From: Kazachstania africana CBS 2517
Taxonomy: Eukaryota; Ascomycota; Saccharomycetes; Saccharomycetales; Saccharomycetaceae
Length of the DNA: 64,000 nt
Assembly: GCF_000304475.1 (NCBI RefSeq)
Contig: NC_018942.1
Span: 1,178,001-1,242,000, forward strand
Direction of reading: 5' to 3'
Positions within the stretch are counted from its first letter, which is position 1; each line of letters opens with the position of its first letter. The notes below the pieces were generated by a model, which searched no databases, was not told the DNA's origin, and worked only from the letters and a program-made list of their open reading frames with translations. The position numbers and the translations under genes are program-made. This document shows, in pieces, positions 76-37,024 of this stretch.

Positions 76-802
76 TTATTCGCTTGCTGTGCCAATGGAG
101 ATACAGATTTTGTCTCCGTCATTAAAGGAAACCGTACCATTATTGTAGATGTACAATAGGTCATCTGTCAAACCAGTCTGTTCCTCAATAGTCTTTGATG
201 AATCATAGAAAATTGAGATACATTCACCAAAATCGGCTGAGTTAACTGGGCCATAAGCTTCTTCCGCTAGTTGTTGGCAGATGTTAACATTACCAATAGA
301 TTGGGTACTAGTGTAGAAATCATAGCCCTTACCCATACTCCATGTCTTAACAGCTTCATCAACATAATCTTCATGTTCTTCCTCAGCAACAATAAAACCA
401 TAAGTAGTTTTTGGGTCACCTGTATGAGACTCAAAATATAAATAGTTGCTGAGACTATTCAAGATGGTAGCGTAACCACTAAAAAGAGTCAACAGGTTAG
501 TCATACCAGCATAAACTTGAATACCTCCGAAAAGACCGAAATCAAGTCCAGAGTCAGATAATTTAAACGCTTGAGTAGTTCCGGTACCGTCTAGAACAGC
601 GTCTAGAAAATCGTCAAAAACCATCTTCCAAACCGTCTATACCATCAGTAGGCAAATCACCATCCCAATAGGCGAAGCCTTCGTGAGTTATCATAAAAGA
701 TCCTTCTGAACAGTCAGCTGGAGAGGATGGAAATGTGACATCTGGAAGAGTAAGTTCGCACAAAACGACTCGGATGAGGAAGAATAGCACTAAAAAAAAC
801 AT
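76..802 (-). pseudogene. Frame-broken gene for a small secreted protein
   Basis: Two overlapping minus-strand open frames appear to be one gene. The 5' piece (802 down to 614) begins with a strongly hydrophobic leader of about 15 residues ending in Cys, as in a signal peptide, and continues as an acidic, Cys-containing stretch. The 3' piece (frame of 624 down to 76) supplies about 180 residues with several Cys, Gly-rich hydrophobic segments and an Asn-Gly-Thr glycosylation site. The frames cross at a run of five A (T on the coding strand) at 616-620, so a one-base indel explains the break. I do not recognise the family. Size, leader and accessory location resemble yeast killer-toxin-like or other subtelomeric secreted proteins, but this is inference. 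A sequencing error at the homopolymer is the main alternative to a true pseudogene. A TATA-like stretch lies near 985-993. Confidence 0.5.
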
Positions 803-1963
803 TAAGTAAATATCTTGTTTTTATTTATAAAATAAAGGACTTTGTAAAATGTAAATGTCAATACCTATTCAGAAATCAATAAACCGTTATCGATTAAGGA
901 TTTGCAATAGTATGTTTCTTTTACAAACTAGCATATAGATAAAATGGAATCGAAATATCAGTGGGAACTCGGAATAAAGCCAGCTATTTATATGTTTTAA
1001 AAAAGAGCCTTCTAGGTAGTCTCCTCTTCATTAGTATATGAACTTCAGTGATAGTGACCTCAGAAGTTCGTCTATGATTTATTAACTTTTTCCACCGTTC
1101 TAATCCCTTACTGCGCGAAACTCAGCTCTCGAAAAATTGTACCTCAATTGAGCGTCTACAGTTGGCCACACTAGAATATGTACCTTCTAATTCGGAGCTA
1201 CATCGAACTGTTTTTGAAGACGTCATATCTACTTGTAAGATTGTTTTTCAAAGCGGGGTGGTCCTGATAGCGCCGTATAATTTTAGAGTTACTCCGATTA
1301 TCACGATGACGGGATATATCCAAAAATGGCAATTTATATTCAATTCTAATGAGGTTCTTGGTGCAGTGCGTACATAGAAGTGCTATTTGAGGCAACTTTT
1401 CTCTCAGCTTGAAAATGCAGTACAGAACAAACTTTGAAATGTGATTAGATGTATGGAAACATTAAGATTAAATGGCAATCCAGATCACAGTTTCATGATT
1501 CTACCAAAACATTGGAATGTGTTAGAAATGTCAGTGTAAGGCTATTTCCAGAACTTATTCACTGTTCAGCAACACATATCATGCATACTTTCCTATTGTA
1601 TCTTCCTCACTGTAAGCCTCGTGTAGTCCGCATAGAGCGTCTTAGAGTGAGGTCATATTTATATGCGCATTAGTATCGAGAGAAAATATTAAAAAAAGTT
1701 GTAATTCCCCAAGTATATACTGTAAGAAAATTAGTGCAAGTTCAATCCAGTAACCAGACCGATGATAACAGAGGGAATATAGCACGGCTTCTGCATATTC
1801 TAATTCAAGGAATAGGAGCAGTGGAAACATATCTGATCGTAGAACTGTAGCTAAAAGCGTCCTGTCTTTTTTCCAAATAGAATTATAAAGTAAATAAAAT
1901 TAAGAAACAAATGTGAGGAAGATTTCCCTTTTATAGTGTGGAAGTCCTCAGTATGACAAAAAT
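803..1963. other. Gene-poor spacer
   Basis: About 1.1 kb with no recognisable gene. Frames of 62-74 codons exist on both strands, but one begins at TTG (1162) and none has a family signature. The part nearest 803-1000 probably holds the promoter of the broken secreted gene. Otherwise I see nothing supported. Confidence 0.5.
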
Positions 1964-2312
1964 TTGACCGATAGTTCTCTTGTCCTCTCTTCAGGTATTG
2001 CGAATCGATGACATTGTACTAATAAGTAACATCTAAGGTTAGTTATATTATACCAAACAAAATGAAGTGTGGAATCAAAGCTAAACTGCATAGTAAAAAC
2101 CAATATTCGTCCTAATTTTTTTCTATACCAAAAGTATCATCAATAAGAGAGGAACAGATGTTCTCTCGATGCTAGATGACATCTATTTATACCTCATAAT
2201 TCACAGTACTCTCGTCGACGACATGATGAAAATTTTTCACTTGTTACTTGTAAGACATCGTATAGCTTCTTTGTATCTATACAAGCAGCGAATGTTTTTG
2301 TTATGGTAAACT
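1964..2312. repeat. Dispersed repeat module, copy A (without an internal gene)
   Basis: This stretch is colinear with two segments at 35147-35298 and 36287-36560. Shared landmarks are TTGACCGATAG at the left, a TATACCAAACAAAAT block, ACCAATATTCGTCCTA just before the junction, then TTTTCTATA, GATGTTCTCTCGAT, ATTTATACCTCATAA and TATCTATACAAGCAGCGAAT. In this copy the halves meet directly at about 2111-2127, whereas the other copy carries a secreted-protein gene there. A further shared piece, ACATTCTTTGTAGTTATTTA at 2769-2788, corresponds to 36563-36582. The 2313-2765 stretch is extra here. It is probably a retrotransposon-LTR or subtelomeric relic; no pol coding remains. Confidence 0.7.
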
Positions 2313-2789
2313 GTAGTGTTTAGTGGACGGAAACGTTCTTGGAAGTATCCATACCTTCGTGACTGTTGTTGTTAATAGTGTTGTTAGACATGATAAGCTT
2401 GTAAGAGTATAAGTTCTTTATTTTATTCAGTAATTATCGTAATAAGTCGATACATATTTTCTTCTAATGTACATAACGTAACGAAAGTAATGAAATAATC
2501 CAGGAAGTTCTGTTCTTATTTCATCCCTTATATAATAATTGGATTGCAATCGATTCCATCTAGAATCGATTTCCCATGAAGAATTTTGTCGAGGTTTATC
2601 CGAAGATACTCTCTCACGGCCTCGTCTGAGTGGGCTTAATATATCCGTAGAACTAGACTCTGATCAAACCTTGCATTTGATTACAAAACGATATCTCAAA
2701 TATGCATCCGAGATATCCTCTATAATCGACTCTTAGCATCATCTAGCCTTATCTAGCGTTTCCAGCATTTACATTCTTTGTAGTTATTT

Positions 2790-3420
2790 ACCAATCTGCT
2801 GAAAATGGCAATATACTGACATTTCAATGTTTTGATAGTTAGAATGACAAATTTAGAATGTTAGAGAAGATATGAACAATAATTATGGTGTGATAAACAC
2901 GACCATATATTGACACGAAATAATTATGGTGTGATAAACTCGACAATATATTGACATGAACCTTATATGGCGTGATAAACGCGAATACATATTATCATGC
3001 AATAATTATGGTACGATAATTATGACAACGTATTGATTCATAAATCTAGAACATGATAATGGGCATAAATCAAAATGTGTTCGAAAAGGTATAAATACTC
3101 AGGTGAACACTGAACTTTGATCAAAGTTCAGTGTTCACCTGAGTATTTATACAATTTCCAACATATCATGCTTTGTAGCATTTTTCCATGTTCTATAATC
3201 ATATTTGTAATATTCTCTAATATTTACTGCCGATAAATTCATCGATTTATCACATTACCATATTATTATGTAATGTTAACTACCGATAAATTTACTGTTT
3301 CTCATATTACCTCATTATTATGTAATTTAATCCTTCTAGAACATTCTAAATTTGTCATTCTAACTATCAGAACATTGAAATGTCAGTATAATGTTATTTC
3401 CAGCATGTCTAGTATTTCCA
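2790..3420. repeat. Fold-back element: diverged inverted repeat with a perfect central palindrome
   Basis: The left arm (about 2817-3120) and the right arm (about 3121-3400) are inverted copies. For example, the 2817-2865 stretch reads as the reverse complement of about 3343-3397, with few differences around AAATTTGTCATTCTAACTAT. At the centre, 3089-3152 is a perfect 64-bp palindrome with no spacer; each 32-bp arm contains TATAAATACTC. The outer arms have drifted and contain indels. It ends about 100 bp before the tRNA-Gly gene, a typical landing place of yeast retrotransposons. Two head-to-head LTR remnants are the likely origin. Confidence 0.75.
2878..3045. repeat. Four tandem units of about 41 bp
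   Basis: Inside the left arm of the fold-back element a unit of the form AATAATTATGGTGTGATAAA followed by a CG-centred linker and CATATATTGACA is repeated about four times (starts near 2878, 2919, 2960 and 3000). The first two copies are nearly identical; the third and fourth have diverged. One degenerate unit can be seen on the opposite strand in the right arm. Confidence 0.7.
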
Positions 3421-3501: not shown

Positions 3502-3572
3502 GCGCAAGTGGTTTAGTGGTAAAATCCAACGTTGCCATCGTTGGGCCCCCGGTTCGATTCCGGGCTTGCGCA
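3502..3572 (+). tRNA. tG(GCC): tRNA-Gly (anticodon GCC)
   Basis: A 71-nt cloverleaf can be drawn. The acceptor arms are GCGCAAG and CTTGCGC with discriminator A. The D-arm contains TTTAGTGGTAAAA (A-box), the anticodon stem is CAACG/CGTTG around loop TTGCCAT (GCC), and the T-arm is CCCGGTTCGATTCCGGG (B-box GGTTCGATTCC). There is no intron. A run of six T at 3577-3582 is the Pol III terminator. Confidence 0.97.
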
Positions 3573-4173
3573 CTTATTTTTTAAAAGTTTCATTATGTCT
3601 TCGCCATTTGATACGTATAATGTTTATACATGAATCAGCGATATTCTGTAATCTGTCTCAGTATGCTAAAGCACTCCGAACGAAATGAAGATACACACGT
3701 CTGTAGGTTACGATAATATTAAGAAACTTTTGGTGGCTTGTCTCAACTCTGGTTTTCACGATGAAAGTTTAGCAGAAGAGATCTGGATCATGGAATAGGA
3801 AAGATCTGAATCGCATCACAACGCTTTTGTGACGTACCGTACAATACTACGATTTTCTGTACTTGTTGAAAATAACGGATGTATAACAGATTCATTTTTC
3901 AGTCAGAGCTACCTGTTGACACGTCAATTCGACATAGGTAAATTGTATTTCTCATATGGCCCACTAGTCTGCCGTCAACTTGTACCATGCATTTGGCCAG
4001 TACGATGTATGAGCGTAACACAATCATCAATATAGGAATCATCTCTTGTTGTGGACGCAGTGCATTCATCACTAACTTTCAACATTAAACATTGCACAGA
4101 TTATATAAAATTATTAATATTAATATGTAACTTGAAAAGAAAAACAATGGGAATTAAGATTTTTATCAAAGAA
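3573..4173. other. Intergenic, tRNA-Gly to HMS1 3' end
   Basis: About 600 bp with the Pol III terminator at its left edge and the HMS1 3' UTR at its right edge. One short frame (3829-4035) has no recognisable features. Nothing else is supported. Confidence 0.5.
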
Positions 4174-23993: not shown

Positions 23994-24190
23994 AAAATGT
24001 CTGATAAGCCAAAGAGATTCACCAAAAGATAATAAAAACATCATGCAGTGAAGTAGAAGATTAATCTAAAGCCAAAATCATTTTCGAAAGAAAACTTTCT
24101 CTATCTCCGCTGTCCACGCCTCCTAAGATACTGAAAGAAATAGCAAAGGAAGTTCTATAAAGCAGAGATTCTACTATTATATTCCCAGCC
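23994..24190 (-). ncRNA. Possible H/ACA snoRNA (snR9-like)
   Basis: In S. cerevisiae, as I recall, SNR9 lies between GLO4 and CUE5. Here the minus strand has AUCUCUG (about 24169-24163) pairing with CGGAGAU (24109-24103), directly followed by AGAGAA (24102-24097), which fits an H box. The pocket strand GGACAG (24115-24110) is complementary to 25S rRNA just 5' of pseudouridine 2340. A second hairpin (UUCAC/GUGAA) and an ACA at 24000-23998 follow. The 5' pocket strand fits poorly, and the pairing next to the target base is imperfect. This is a candidate only. Confidence 0.28.
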
Positions 24191-33975: not shown

Positions 33976-34914
33976 ATTTCTTTACTTTCCTTCACAACTA
34001 GTTGATTTTATAAATTTATTTGAAGTAGAAAAATTTTTCTCCTTATTAAGCTGAATATATCTAATAATGTTAAAACTCTTTCCCAACACACGCCAACTCT
34101 TCAGTCTGGACTATAAACAACGAACCAATTTATTCTTTATATCCTTATCAATGGGTAAAACTATCAGATAGACAATGAGTTTAGTATATATATATAATAC
34201 ACCACTTGTTTCCCTCAAAAAGACACTTGTTGTTCTTAGGTCGAGGGGATTGATTTTTGCGGTGCACACTCAAGCAGTTATATTAAATCTGGTCCTAGTC
34301 TTACGAGATTGCGTTGCAGCGAAAAAAAAATCAATACATAAAAATTTTTCCGTGCAACAAAATGACAACATAATAGAATAAGTGCGCAGGGGATTTATTT
34401 CTGGCGAATATTGTCTGTTGCATGTCTCCAACGGAAAAATATCGAAGAAAATCCGCACAAATTTCGGGATATGCCATGTTGCGGGGAGCACCAAATTGTT
34501 ATATTTTCTGATGCGGCCTTTTCTGAGAGAAAGAAATTGCAGCCATGTATAAAGAAAACAAATTAATTTCTCAGGCCTCTCCGAGATTTGTTGGCGGGAA
34601 ATTATCTGCCTATTATTCCCGTCTCTGGTCTGCCCATTATTAATTTCTTTTTTCAAGTTCCTTTACTCCACATTTATTCCTTCGGAAAAACTTCCGAAAT
34701 GTTCCATTTGGTCAAAAACTAAAGGCAAAAATGGTAAATTTGTTTTTGGTGTCTATAGTATAAACTGGGCTGGTCAGAAGAGGAGAAGTATAGGTACTTT
34801 TGCCTTAGTAGTCACTGACATGTACAAAACAACCCATCATAATCTTTTCTATGAATCTGTTACTCATGCAGAAATGGAAATTTAAAAAATTTGAAAAAAA
34901 AATTAAAAAAGAAG
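33976..34914. promoter_or_regulatory. MTH1/STD1 upstream region with Rgt1- and Mig1-type sites
   Basis: About 940 bp upstream of the minus-strand MTH1/STD1 gene. Three CGGAAAA sequences fit the Rgt1 consensus CGGANNA: 34346-34352 (reverse strand), 34432-34438 and 34683-34689. GCGGGG at 34481-34486 fits the Mig1 core. In S. cerevisiae the STD1 and MTH1 promoters are controlled by Rgt1 and Mig1/Mig2, so the set is plausible. Individual motifs of this length also arise by chance. No gene is seen in the interval. Confidence 0.4.
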
Positions 34915-34986
34915 CTCCGATGCCGGGAGTCGAACCCGGGTCTCCACGGTGAGAACGTAATGTGATAGCCGTTACACTACATCGGA
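34915..34986 (-). tRNA. tE(CTC): tRNA-Glu (anticodon CTC)
   Basis: A 72-nt cloverleaf on the minus strand. The acceptor is TCCGATG with CATCGGA and discriminator G. The A-box region is TAGTGTAACGGCTATCAC, the anticodon loop is TTCTCAC (CTC), and the T-arm has GGGTTCGACTCCC. There is no intron. Runs of A on the plus strand at 34889-34910 give Pol III T-run terminators just 3' of the gene. Confidence 0.97.
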
Positions 34987-35374
34987 TTGGAATCTACGGG
35001 GTTGGGAATGATATTAGATAATGAACAAGGATTGAGAATCCTCTGTACTACCCTGTCCGACGTGCTCGATTTTTCAAAGTCTCATTCCCTCCAGCTAATA
35101 TATACGTAAGGGAAGATCGGAGAATATCTCTTGCATTATAATGTTGTTGACCGATAGAAGTCTTTTCCCCTCTTGGGATGTTGCTAATCGATGACATAGT
35201 GGTAATAAATAAGATCTGTGAGTTAGTTATAGTATACCAAACAAAATAAAGTATGAAATCAGAATTAAACTATATATTAAAAACCAATATTCGTCCTACT
35301 CTTTTTTTTTATATATTTATTTTATCGTTTATTATACAGCGCACAGCCCCAGTTACTGGTCGAGCCATTTGCTG

Positions 35375-36275
35375 TTATGCAGAGTAGTCCACGCGCCACT
35401 GCTGCTGCCGTGTATCTGGCCTACTCAGCTCAGACCACCCCCAGTACGCCCAGTGGTTGCCAATGTACAAGCCATTAGCGTTGACCTGCCCTGTCCACGT
35501 ATCTTGGTAGGCTTCAGTACAGGACGCCGGAATGGTGTTACCGTAACACTCATCATCCCTGAAGGTAGCGAACCAAGAGTATGTATTCCTCGCATGACAG
35601 CCGATCTTGTTCCCAGGTCCTACTGTGAACCTACTCTGATTCACTTGCTGGCATCGGTGGTGCGGCTACACCTCCAATAGCATATACTTGGAGCTGGGGT
35701 TCTGCGTTATACGACAGGAACTTTGAGTTTACCATCTCACATATATCCGAATACGTTATAACCATATCCGCGTGTACGCAGGTCTTGTCGTCGGCGCCGA
35801 AGAAATAATAGTATCCCTCGCTATGCCCACGTCACATTATGGTTCCTGAGTTTTCGTTCATGTATGTTGCGCCGCCAGCTATCTTGTCCCACAATTCCAA
35901 GCTAGGTAAGCGATCAGTTCCTGTTAATACTCGGCCTAGAGTTGACCACTGTGTGTAGTACTCCGCAATGCTGTCAGCTAATACCACCTCATTTCGTACG
36001 TGTGCTAAGTAACGAATGGAGCAATAGTCGGTGACCGCTGTAACAGCAGCTGTGTTGACTTGGGTCGTGTTGAAATAGACAATTAGAGAGCTACTACCAT
36101 CAATGAGGACTTGGGTGCTATTGTCAGCGCCGTTCACTTGCAGGCACTTCAAATAATTAAGCGCAGCTATTTCTGGGCTGGTAGAGTTAACAATAGGCCC
36201 CAGAGCGACCTGATCCAGCCAGCTTGCCGCAGTGATAGGCAAAAGGACTAACGAATGTATTAGGGGGAGACGCAT
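35375..36275 (-). pseudogene. Broken gene for a secreted, killer-toxin-like protein
   Basis: Reading from ATG at 36275, a hydrophobic signal peptide (about 17 residues) is followed by a Thr/Asn-rich region with several Asn-X-Thr/Ser sites. The frame meets TGA at 35832-35834 but stays open beyond it in the same frame for about 75 codons, to a stop near 35640. A different frame then carries a Trp- and Cys-rich C-terminal part to 35375. So there is one premature stop and one frameshift in what was about a 300-residue secreted protein. Composition is unlike the neighbours: 38 of 60 bases at 35401-35460 are G/C. I do not recognise a named family. A chromosomal killer-toxin-type gene is my best inference from size, leader, Cys content and setting. 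Confidence 0.55.
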
Positions 36276-36377
36276 CGTAACTCTAATTTTTTCTATATAA
36301 AAAGTATCTTCAATAAGAGAAGAAAAGATGTTCTCTCGATACTAGATGACGTCGATTTATACCTCATAAATCACAAC

Positions 36378-36635
36378 ATTCTCGTCTATAAATATGTGCC
36401 ACAGTATTATAGACCCAACATCATGCAATATCGCACGACATTGTACAACTGACAAGCAACAAGTGAAAATTTTCATCATGTCGTGGGCGAGAGAGTCCGT
36501 CATATAGCCTCTTCGTATCTATACAAGCAGCGAATCTTCTTGTTATGGTAAACCGTTGTGGTTACATTCTTCGTAGTTATTTACCAATCCATAATATTCC
36601 CGTCTACAAATATGTGCTATAGTATTATAGACCCA
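36378..36635. repeat. Direct repeat pair of about 40 bp
   Basis: 36378-36417 and 36596-36635 both read ATTC(T/C)CGTCTA(T/C)AAATATGTG followed by C(C/T)A(C/T)AGTATTATAGACCCA, differing at about five positions. The pair flanks a 178-bp segment in the right half of repeat module B. Confidence 0.85.
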
Positions 36636-37024
36636 TCAAACTCTCATTCCGAGTTGTCGTAATTGTTCCAGCATAATGTCATTTCTAGCAAATATTCCAT
36701 TACATCCATAGCTTCTTTGGTTTATTTATAAATCCAGGGTTAAAAAGGCTTTCTAATCATGGTCGCTACAATAAGTGGAAAGTACTAATGCGTTATCTGT
36801 GAAGGTTACTAGACAAGATGAAGGAACTCAATGGCATGTATGGTAGAGAGCAAAGCGGCTTCAACGAGTAATAAAACTCGATTTCTCTTTTTTGAGAAGC
36901 TACATCGCACTACCTTTTTGTAAAGAAATATTTATTATTTTCTTCACCAGTTTATAGCCCATAAACGACTACCATGTACAAATGTTAATATATACGCTTA
37001 TATAATTAGTAAGGAATTATGTCA
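36636..37024. other. Intergenic, repeat module B to RAT1 3' end
   Basis: About 390 bp with the RAT1 3' UTR at the right. Nothing recognisable is present apart from the end of the repeat module. Confidence 0.45.

Follow-up and report, generated by a model that had tools for sequence, protein, structure and literature searches.

The sequence suggests that the retrotransposons of Kazachstania africana have repeatedly picked up secreted, toxin-like genes and supplied them with promoters. We analyzed one stretch of 64,000 nucleotides (the window; G000:C3:1178001-1242000) and searched the genome (11.13 Mb in 12 contigs) with the repeats and genes found in it. Directly readable are the identity of a long terminal repeat (LTR), its target duplications, the sense of the gene that it holds, a junction that recurs in further copies and a run of A residues at R, as well as the presence of unrelated gene families in the same slot and the near identity of the LTR that hosts the gene in one copy, B, to an empty LTR.

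The window holds two copies of the repeat, A and B, and the original prediction had it that A and the two flanks of B are one repeat, matching in order, with a gene for a secreted protein between the halves of B only. Consistent with this, A matches the flanks of B at 81-88% identity, with E values down to 7e-40 (A 1964-2127 with B 35147-35313, 135/167 positions, E 7e-40; A 2112-2216 with B 36283-36386, 92/105; A 2258-2322 with B 36500-36564, 57/65), and A 2769-2796 matches B 36562-36589 in 27/28 positions. The same places matched when the whole window was searched with the low-complexity filter on, which rules out low-complexity similarity as the source of the match. The predicted order holds for the matching segments but not throughout: one internal piece is inverted (A 2209-2254 corresponds to B 36493-36449) and B has extra U3 sequence, its U3 half containing one inverted inner piece and one duplicated piece. 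The gene is indeed confined to B, the occupied copy. Copy A is an empty LTR (84% identical to that at C2:1374677 and 82% to that at C2:1082059) split by later insertions; it is interrupted by ∼447 bp of another repeat (2322-2768), around which no clean target duplication was seen, and resumes at 2769-2796. The fold-back element at 2797-3405 has inverted arms of ∼300 bp, and related pieces lie beside many LTR copies. Elsewhere in the window are another secreted-type gene, in pieces (76-624, minus strand, and 614-820), which gave no Pfam match above the cut-off and has a relative at L038:3781-4344 (73-80%), where an LTR and a tRNA gene are likewise found, and the snoRNA snR9 (23995-24186, minus strand; Rfam RF01245, 82.6 bits).

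Table 1. Features of copies A and B and their surroundings (positions in the window)
Feature	Position	Strand	Remark
LTR-III remnant (second repeat, LTR-like), adjoining copy A	1839..1955	-	
Copy A, empty solo LTR (LTR sense minus)	1964..2322	-	LTR 3' end at 1964-1965; by similarity to empty LTRs
Other repeat inserted in copy A	2322..2768	+	76% to L022:2927-3379
28-bp continuation of copy A behind the later insertion	2769..2796	-	
Fold-back element, adjoins copy A	2797..3405	.	Inverted arms TGCTG...CAGCA
tRNA-Gly(GCC)	3502..3573	+	Copy A lies upstream
tRNA-Glu(CTC)	34914..34986	-	B lies upstream
Target-site duplication GTTGT, left of B	35143..35147	+	
R-U5 half of the LTR of B	35148..35301	-	Includes Gag start codon position; putative border at 35301
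A9 run (gene sense) between putatively captured gene and R	35302..35310	-	
Putatively captured stretch with toxin-like gene	35311..36290	-	
Toxin-like gene, piece 3	35375..35665	-	Other frame
Toxin-like gene, piece 2	35631..35831	-	Same frame, behind the stop
Toxin-like gene, piece 1	35832..36275	-	Signal-peptide-like start; ends at in-frame stop
U3 half of the LTR of B	36291..36652	-	Rearranged middle resembling the L021 head-to-head U3 junction
TATA box TATAAATC	36354..36361	-	∼63 nt before U3/gene border
Target-site duplication GTTGT, right of B	36653..36657	+	

Judged by its ends and its neighbors, the repeat belongs to a K. africana retrotransposon of Ty1 type, of which it forms the LTR (LTR-I), and empty solo LTRs are numerous among its copies. 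In minus-strand reading, it extends from TGTTGGAA to GGTCA over 438-459 bp (three empty copies). Copy A as a query gave 37 matches in the genome and an empty copy gave 46 pieces, amounting to 11.1 kb or 0.1% of the genome; these counts are lower bounds, and the locus survey left out LTR matches at C8:279k, C1:939k, C4:958k and C3:686k. As in solo LTRs of Ty1-type elements (Pseudoviridae), the ends are TG...CA and 5-bp target duplications are found: TTGGG at C2:1082k (L041), CTCAA at C8:610k (L039) and GTTGT, which flanks the whole of B, where the 5' end of the LTR is worn. A clear target duplication is absent in some other copies (for example L024, L040 and L033). At L024 (C2:1376-1380k), the LTR end ...GGTCA is directly followed by TGGTAGCGCC, which we take to be the Ty1 iMet primer site, and the linked element has an open frame of 1185 aa whose first Gag residues are coded within the LTR. 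This frame matches TYA above the cut-off (8.9e-20) and the integrase domain (rve) just below it (32.4 bits; cut-off 32.6). No reverse transcriptase was found in an element with the same LTR; the RVT_2 matches (n = 4) lie only at C1:360k and C11:468k, and LTR-I gave one weak, short match at these elements (L055 and L056; E 0.01).

The module had been predicted to be mobile or subtelomere-like. An LTR with target duplications bears out the first, whereas a subtelomeric module is ruled out by the distance of A and B, 126-160 kb, from the nearer end of the 1.34-Mb contig; both lie upstream of tRNA genes. A tRNA gene was present in the examined stretch at 13/15 gene-less LTR loci and at 6/11 toxin-LTR loci (introns allowed, stretches of unequal length, the tRNA of L022 being a doubtful call), and tRNA-linked insertion is therefore less clear for the toxin LTRs. 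There is next to no probability that the repeat is the conserved, immobile promoter of the gene family itself. It does lie upstream of many family members, but it includes the Gag start codon and abuts the primer site, a tRNA gene is found at most gene-less loci, and the many gene-less copies, some with target duplications, rule this explanation out.

The gene of B lies in LTR sense between the half with the TATA box (U3) and the R-U5 half. The U3 side covers positions 5-292 of the LTR and the R side positions 284-438, the two overlapping in an A-rich stretch. Of the 11 U3 stretches on the toxin side, 10 align at a TATAAAT(A/C) box that precedes the slot by ∼60 nt (the alignment fails at L026a, though the word TATATAAATA is present there); the box is exact in 3/10 empty copies and one base off in some of the others. 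Because transcription would be expected to start ∼60 nt after the TATA box, we infer that the slot is the U3/R border. The run of A residues at R is longer in copies with an embedded gene (B, 9; L021a, 10; L021b, 12; L029, 16) than in eight empty copies (2-7; exact p 0.006 with L021a and L021b counted once), so that a poly(A) tract such as marks a retro-copy is found at the 3' junction as A9, A10, A12 and A16. The run at a further occupied locus, L022, is A7, no longer than that of the longest empty copy (copy A, 7). Runs of at least nine A residues are common in the window (approximately once per 9 kb per strand), which makes the A9 of B weak evidence when taken by itself. GAAAAA at the junction is ambiguous as a motif, since it is also found in 7/10 gene-less LTR copies; it is absent at the L026a and L030 junctions, which belong to a third secreted family. 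The short direct repeats said to bound the gene of B were only partly confirmed, as one edge has the LTR's own TATATAGAAAAA and the other TATATA and the A9 run; it is the A run, and not TATATA, that recurs at other occupied copies.

The fit of the two halves bears on a different account, namely that toxin genes already in place received Ty insertions upstream and that the LTRs downstream are separate and there by chance. Several genes do have an LTR upstream only. However, a single GTTGT duplication stands at the outer ends of the two halves of B, these halves fit together as one LTR with the same empty LTR as best match, and the halves also fit at L021 (16-292 and 302-438), L029 (3-292 and 299-438) and L033 (7-372 and 401-438); we consider insertion upstream of resident genes improbable.

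The gene of B is a broken relic, a secreted-type protein in three open pieces on the minus strand interrupted by an in-frame stop and a frame change. Searches made separately with the three pieces (E up to 0.01) placed its family at 16 loci in the genome (14 and 12 matches from two of the piece searches, combined), two reverse-transcriptase open reading frames of L056 in ORF cluster 0 having been removed. The best match of the gene, 56% over 126 residues, is located between LTR-III copies. Six intact members are 278-298 aa long, with conserved cysteines and dibasic sites (KR/RR sites and Cys seen by eye in alignments); the N termini of the toxin-like proteins are hydrophobic. The family thus has the form of a killer-toxin precursor, secreted and with processing sites and cysteines, the copy in B being broken; the label "toxin-like" rests on this form and on neither homology nor assay. 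The first piece and three members tested gave no Pfam match. Among 5.8 billion proteins, in a search that reaches only relatives sharing short words, relatives were found in K. africana only (two with one query, five with a six-member profile). The second family, DUF6736 ("secreted protein CSS2," PF20521), to which the genes of L021 and L029 belong (73.6 and 88.8 bits; cut-off 27), is another one than that of B, and the two profiles have no similarity (hhalign probability 0.4, E 0.16). No relative of either family was found among solved structures, and the predicted structures of both (pLDDT ∼50) were too poor for searching.

Genome-wide, gene-bearing and empty copies of the module are both present elsewhere, and the junction of B is found again in further copies, recurrent and precise. 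At L021 (C7:450-453k), two head-to-head LTRs each carry the same 235-aa DUF6736 open reading frame, and at L029 (C7:621-623k) the gene is KAFR_0G03000, also DUF6736. The two gene-bearing LTRs of L021 (L021:4354-7102), whose frames are identical, appear to be a recent inverted duplication. The long open reading frame starts 114 nt behind U3 in L021 and 59 nt in L029, and in both another ATG precedes it, which argues against efficient promoter use there. At L025 (two genes) and L033, a toxin-like ATG coincides with or adjoins the Gag start codon position (by eye). The last 38 bases of the LTR follow the gene of L033 (score 30; shuffled maximum 19), whereas L025 has no LTR behind the gene beyond chance, only a worn look-alike with a flank shared with L033. 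In L023 and L037, U3 is followed by a gene and no clear LTR lies behind it (L037 score 21; shuffled maximum 20), and in L026 and L030 the third secreted family stands directly behind U3. Because the stretches behind the genes of L023, L025, L026, L030 and L050 gave no LTR match better than chance (a rear match of L050a belongs to the upstream piece of the next gene), these may be promoter fusions only.

LTR-I lies directly upstream of 11 of the 24 toxin-like genes tested, scoring 41-178 against a highest shuffled score of 35 in the whole set. This set is non-random: 16 genes come from the protein searches with the pieces of B and the rest were seen beside LTRs; 13 of the 24 lack LTR-I there, L050a and L050b being borderline. 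Within the family of B, an LTR or LTR-like stretch is clearly present upstream at 11 of the 16 loci (LTR-I directly upstream in seven, LTR-III in four), two have a partial LTR-I (L050, kept separate in the count on account of its short, rearranged LTR pieces) and at three (L053a, L053b and L054) no LTR was seen directly upstream. If LTRs and genes are assumed to be uniformly placed, the tail probability is 3e-21 for LTR-I upstream of 7/16 and 3e-12 for 4/11, the count without B and with tandem pairs collapsed. Open reading frames of at least 90 aa in the sense direction within 300 nt downstream of LTR pieces are all of secreted or gag type, which random capture of mRNAs does not predict; those on the upstream side include three of other kinds (L024, L034 and L037) and overlapping frames.

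Two further repeats stand beside secreted genes in a similar way. L022 has an open 331-aa secreted reading frame followed by its A7 run and R-U5, and its 5' flank matches the U3 of a second LTR type, U3-II (68% over 149 bp, E 3e-15). U3-II precedes R-U5 and gag remnants in L021, is also present in L056, which holds a Ty1/copia reverse transcriptase, and lies directly before a 245-aa secreted frame (L058, DUF6736-like) and a 314-aa one (L059). Three secreted genes thus stand behind this type of U3, one of them (L022) with R-U5 following. The third repeat, LTR-III (41 matches; TGTTGTAAC...ACAATA), is LTR-like, and two of its copies show, by eye, duplications of ATTGA and CAAAC; neither gag nor pol was found linked to it. 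One LTR-III stretch precedes the genes of L048, L049, L051 and L052 and an inverted one follows them, with arm identities of 277/296 (L048), 206/210 (L051), 143/167 (L049) and 198/257 (L052). These toxin-like genes are situated between inverted front parts of LTR-III, with arms up to 98% identical (L051), and all four stretches have a tRNA gene. A DUF6736-like gene at G000:C1:1653028-1654717 also appears to sit between inverted LTR-III copies.

The original prediction had left the choice between precise gain and microhomology-mediated loss of the gene. Each of the three LTR stretches of B is closest to the empty LTR at C2:1374677 (150/153, 92/96 and 133/139, gaps aside; 96-98% identity in each part). 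In trees of U3 and of R-U5, many nodes of which are weakly supported, the toxin LTRs fall into several groups rather than one clade and are mixed with empty copies except in two toxin-only groups (L029 with L023 and L025a with L033). A gene older than its LTR and a near-twin LTR that is empty argue for gain, which is the simpler reading and in B the likelier event. Loss as the main route, with LTR-toxin units ancestral and empty copies produced by deletion between short repeats, could draw on the similar AT-rich words at both edges of the gene of B; yet empty LTRs are spread through the trees, the empty LTR nearest to B has A2 only at the junction, and an LTR interrupted at U3/R would presumably no longer serve in Ty replication, all of which leaves loss very improbable.

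To account for the gain, we lean toward a course of events in which toxin-like mRNAs were reverse transcribed by the Ty machinery, joined at the U3/R border and so placed under LTR promoters. B and a few further copies have the layout U3 with a TATA box, gene, A run and R-U5. Minus-strand strong-stop DNA, a copy of R-U5, would have moved to the poly(A) of a toxin mRNA and not to the 3' R of Ty, copied that mRNA as far as the 5' end and only afterwards switched to U3. The product of both switches would be U3-gene-poly(A)-R-U5, the arrangement seen; integrase would insert it upstream of tRNA genes, and the LTR promoter would then drive the captured gene. Since an A run appears to mark the start of R, the strong-stop DNA would terminate in T residues, which would favor poly(A) priming. 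The Gag start codon may have been a second capture position, with the toxin-like ATG replacing that of Gag (L025 and L033). The predominance of secreted genes might reflect selection or a special source of RNA such as killer satellites.

Repeated capture of RNA would not be needed if one old LTR-toxin unit had spread and been reshuffled by recombination or gene conversion, the toxin changing within a shared chassis. A 40-nt U3 insert common to B, L021 and L029 only, among the loci compared in the trees, makes some spread by recombination likely; the middle of the U3 of B resembles the L021 head-to-head junction (by eye), and the U3 of L029 groups with that of L023 (support 95) despite the unrelated genes of these two loci. 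Against such a spread as the whole explanation, the two halves of B belong with a single young lineage of LTRs in which the other members are empty or lack a gene, the genes come from two families without profile similarity, more than one LTR type takes part, and the A runs are left unexplained. We therefore regard the spread of a single unit as unlikely and retain reverse transcription of toxin-like mRNAs as the preferred reading. In a broader form of the latter, which we offer tentatively and consider less likely than not, Ty elements would be recurrent toxin-capture devices whose oligo(T)-ended strong-stop cDNA primes on the poly(A) of toxin RNAs and yields promoter-fitted, integrating U3-toxin-poly(A)-R-U5 units. 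The RNA could be host mRNA or killer-satellite RNA, at least two LTR types would have offered this slot to unrelated toxins, and the third, LTR-like type would give a U3-like stretch on both sides of other toxins.

Capture of killer genes by retrotransposition has already been proposed in print (PMC7888664, PMC12691639), the earlier suggestions resting on nearby LTRs and tRNA genes. KTA2 of Saccharomyces cerevisiae Y55, a K62-like killer gene, is there described as LTR-flanked and 1,459 bp from a tRNA gene and is read by its authors as acquired through retrotransposition (PMC12691639). It is like B in being a toxin-type gene with LTRs near a tRNA gene; the gene of B, however, lies inside one LTR, at the U3/R border and with an A run, and, unlike what that description gives for KTA2, the slot in K. 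africana is found at several loci and with unrelated genes. For the K1-like killer toxin (KKT) genes of K. africana and other yeasts, Fredericks 2021 proposed reverse transcription by retrotransposons (PMC7888664), so that species and proposed origin are shared with the present case; the KKT genes are described there as mostly subtelomeric, whereas A and B lie far from the contig end. The same source reports that six KKT genes or pseudogenes have GAAAAA by their start codons, read as a mark of satellite dsRNA, and describes a killer satellite that itself begins with GAAAAA and in which poly(A) follows the toxin frame (PMC7888664). Ty1 is described as reverse transcribing cellular RNAs into the S. 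cerevisiae genome and as able to place coding sequences near other promoters (PMC7175516); compared with the retrosequences and processed pseudogenes that this source covers, the products in K. africana are inside the LTR, secreted and toxin-like. We found no description of a toxin gene inside an LTR itself among the papers listed in a search of titles and the starts of abstracts that left most subscription journals outside.

The junctions described here can be read directly and bear on how killer-toxin genes may enter yeast chromosomes and acquire promoters. They also warn that an LTR, and not a killer satellite, may be the source of GAAAAA by a start codon. With a gene at the U3/R border, an A run and a single duplication enclosing the unit as a whole, capture, the source RNA and the use of the promoter become testable in one yeast.
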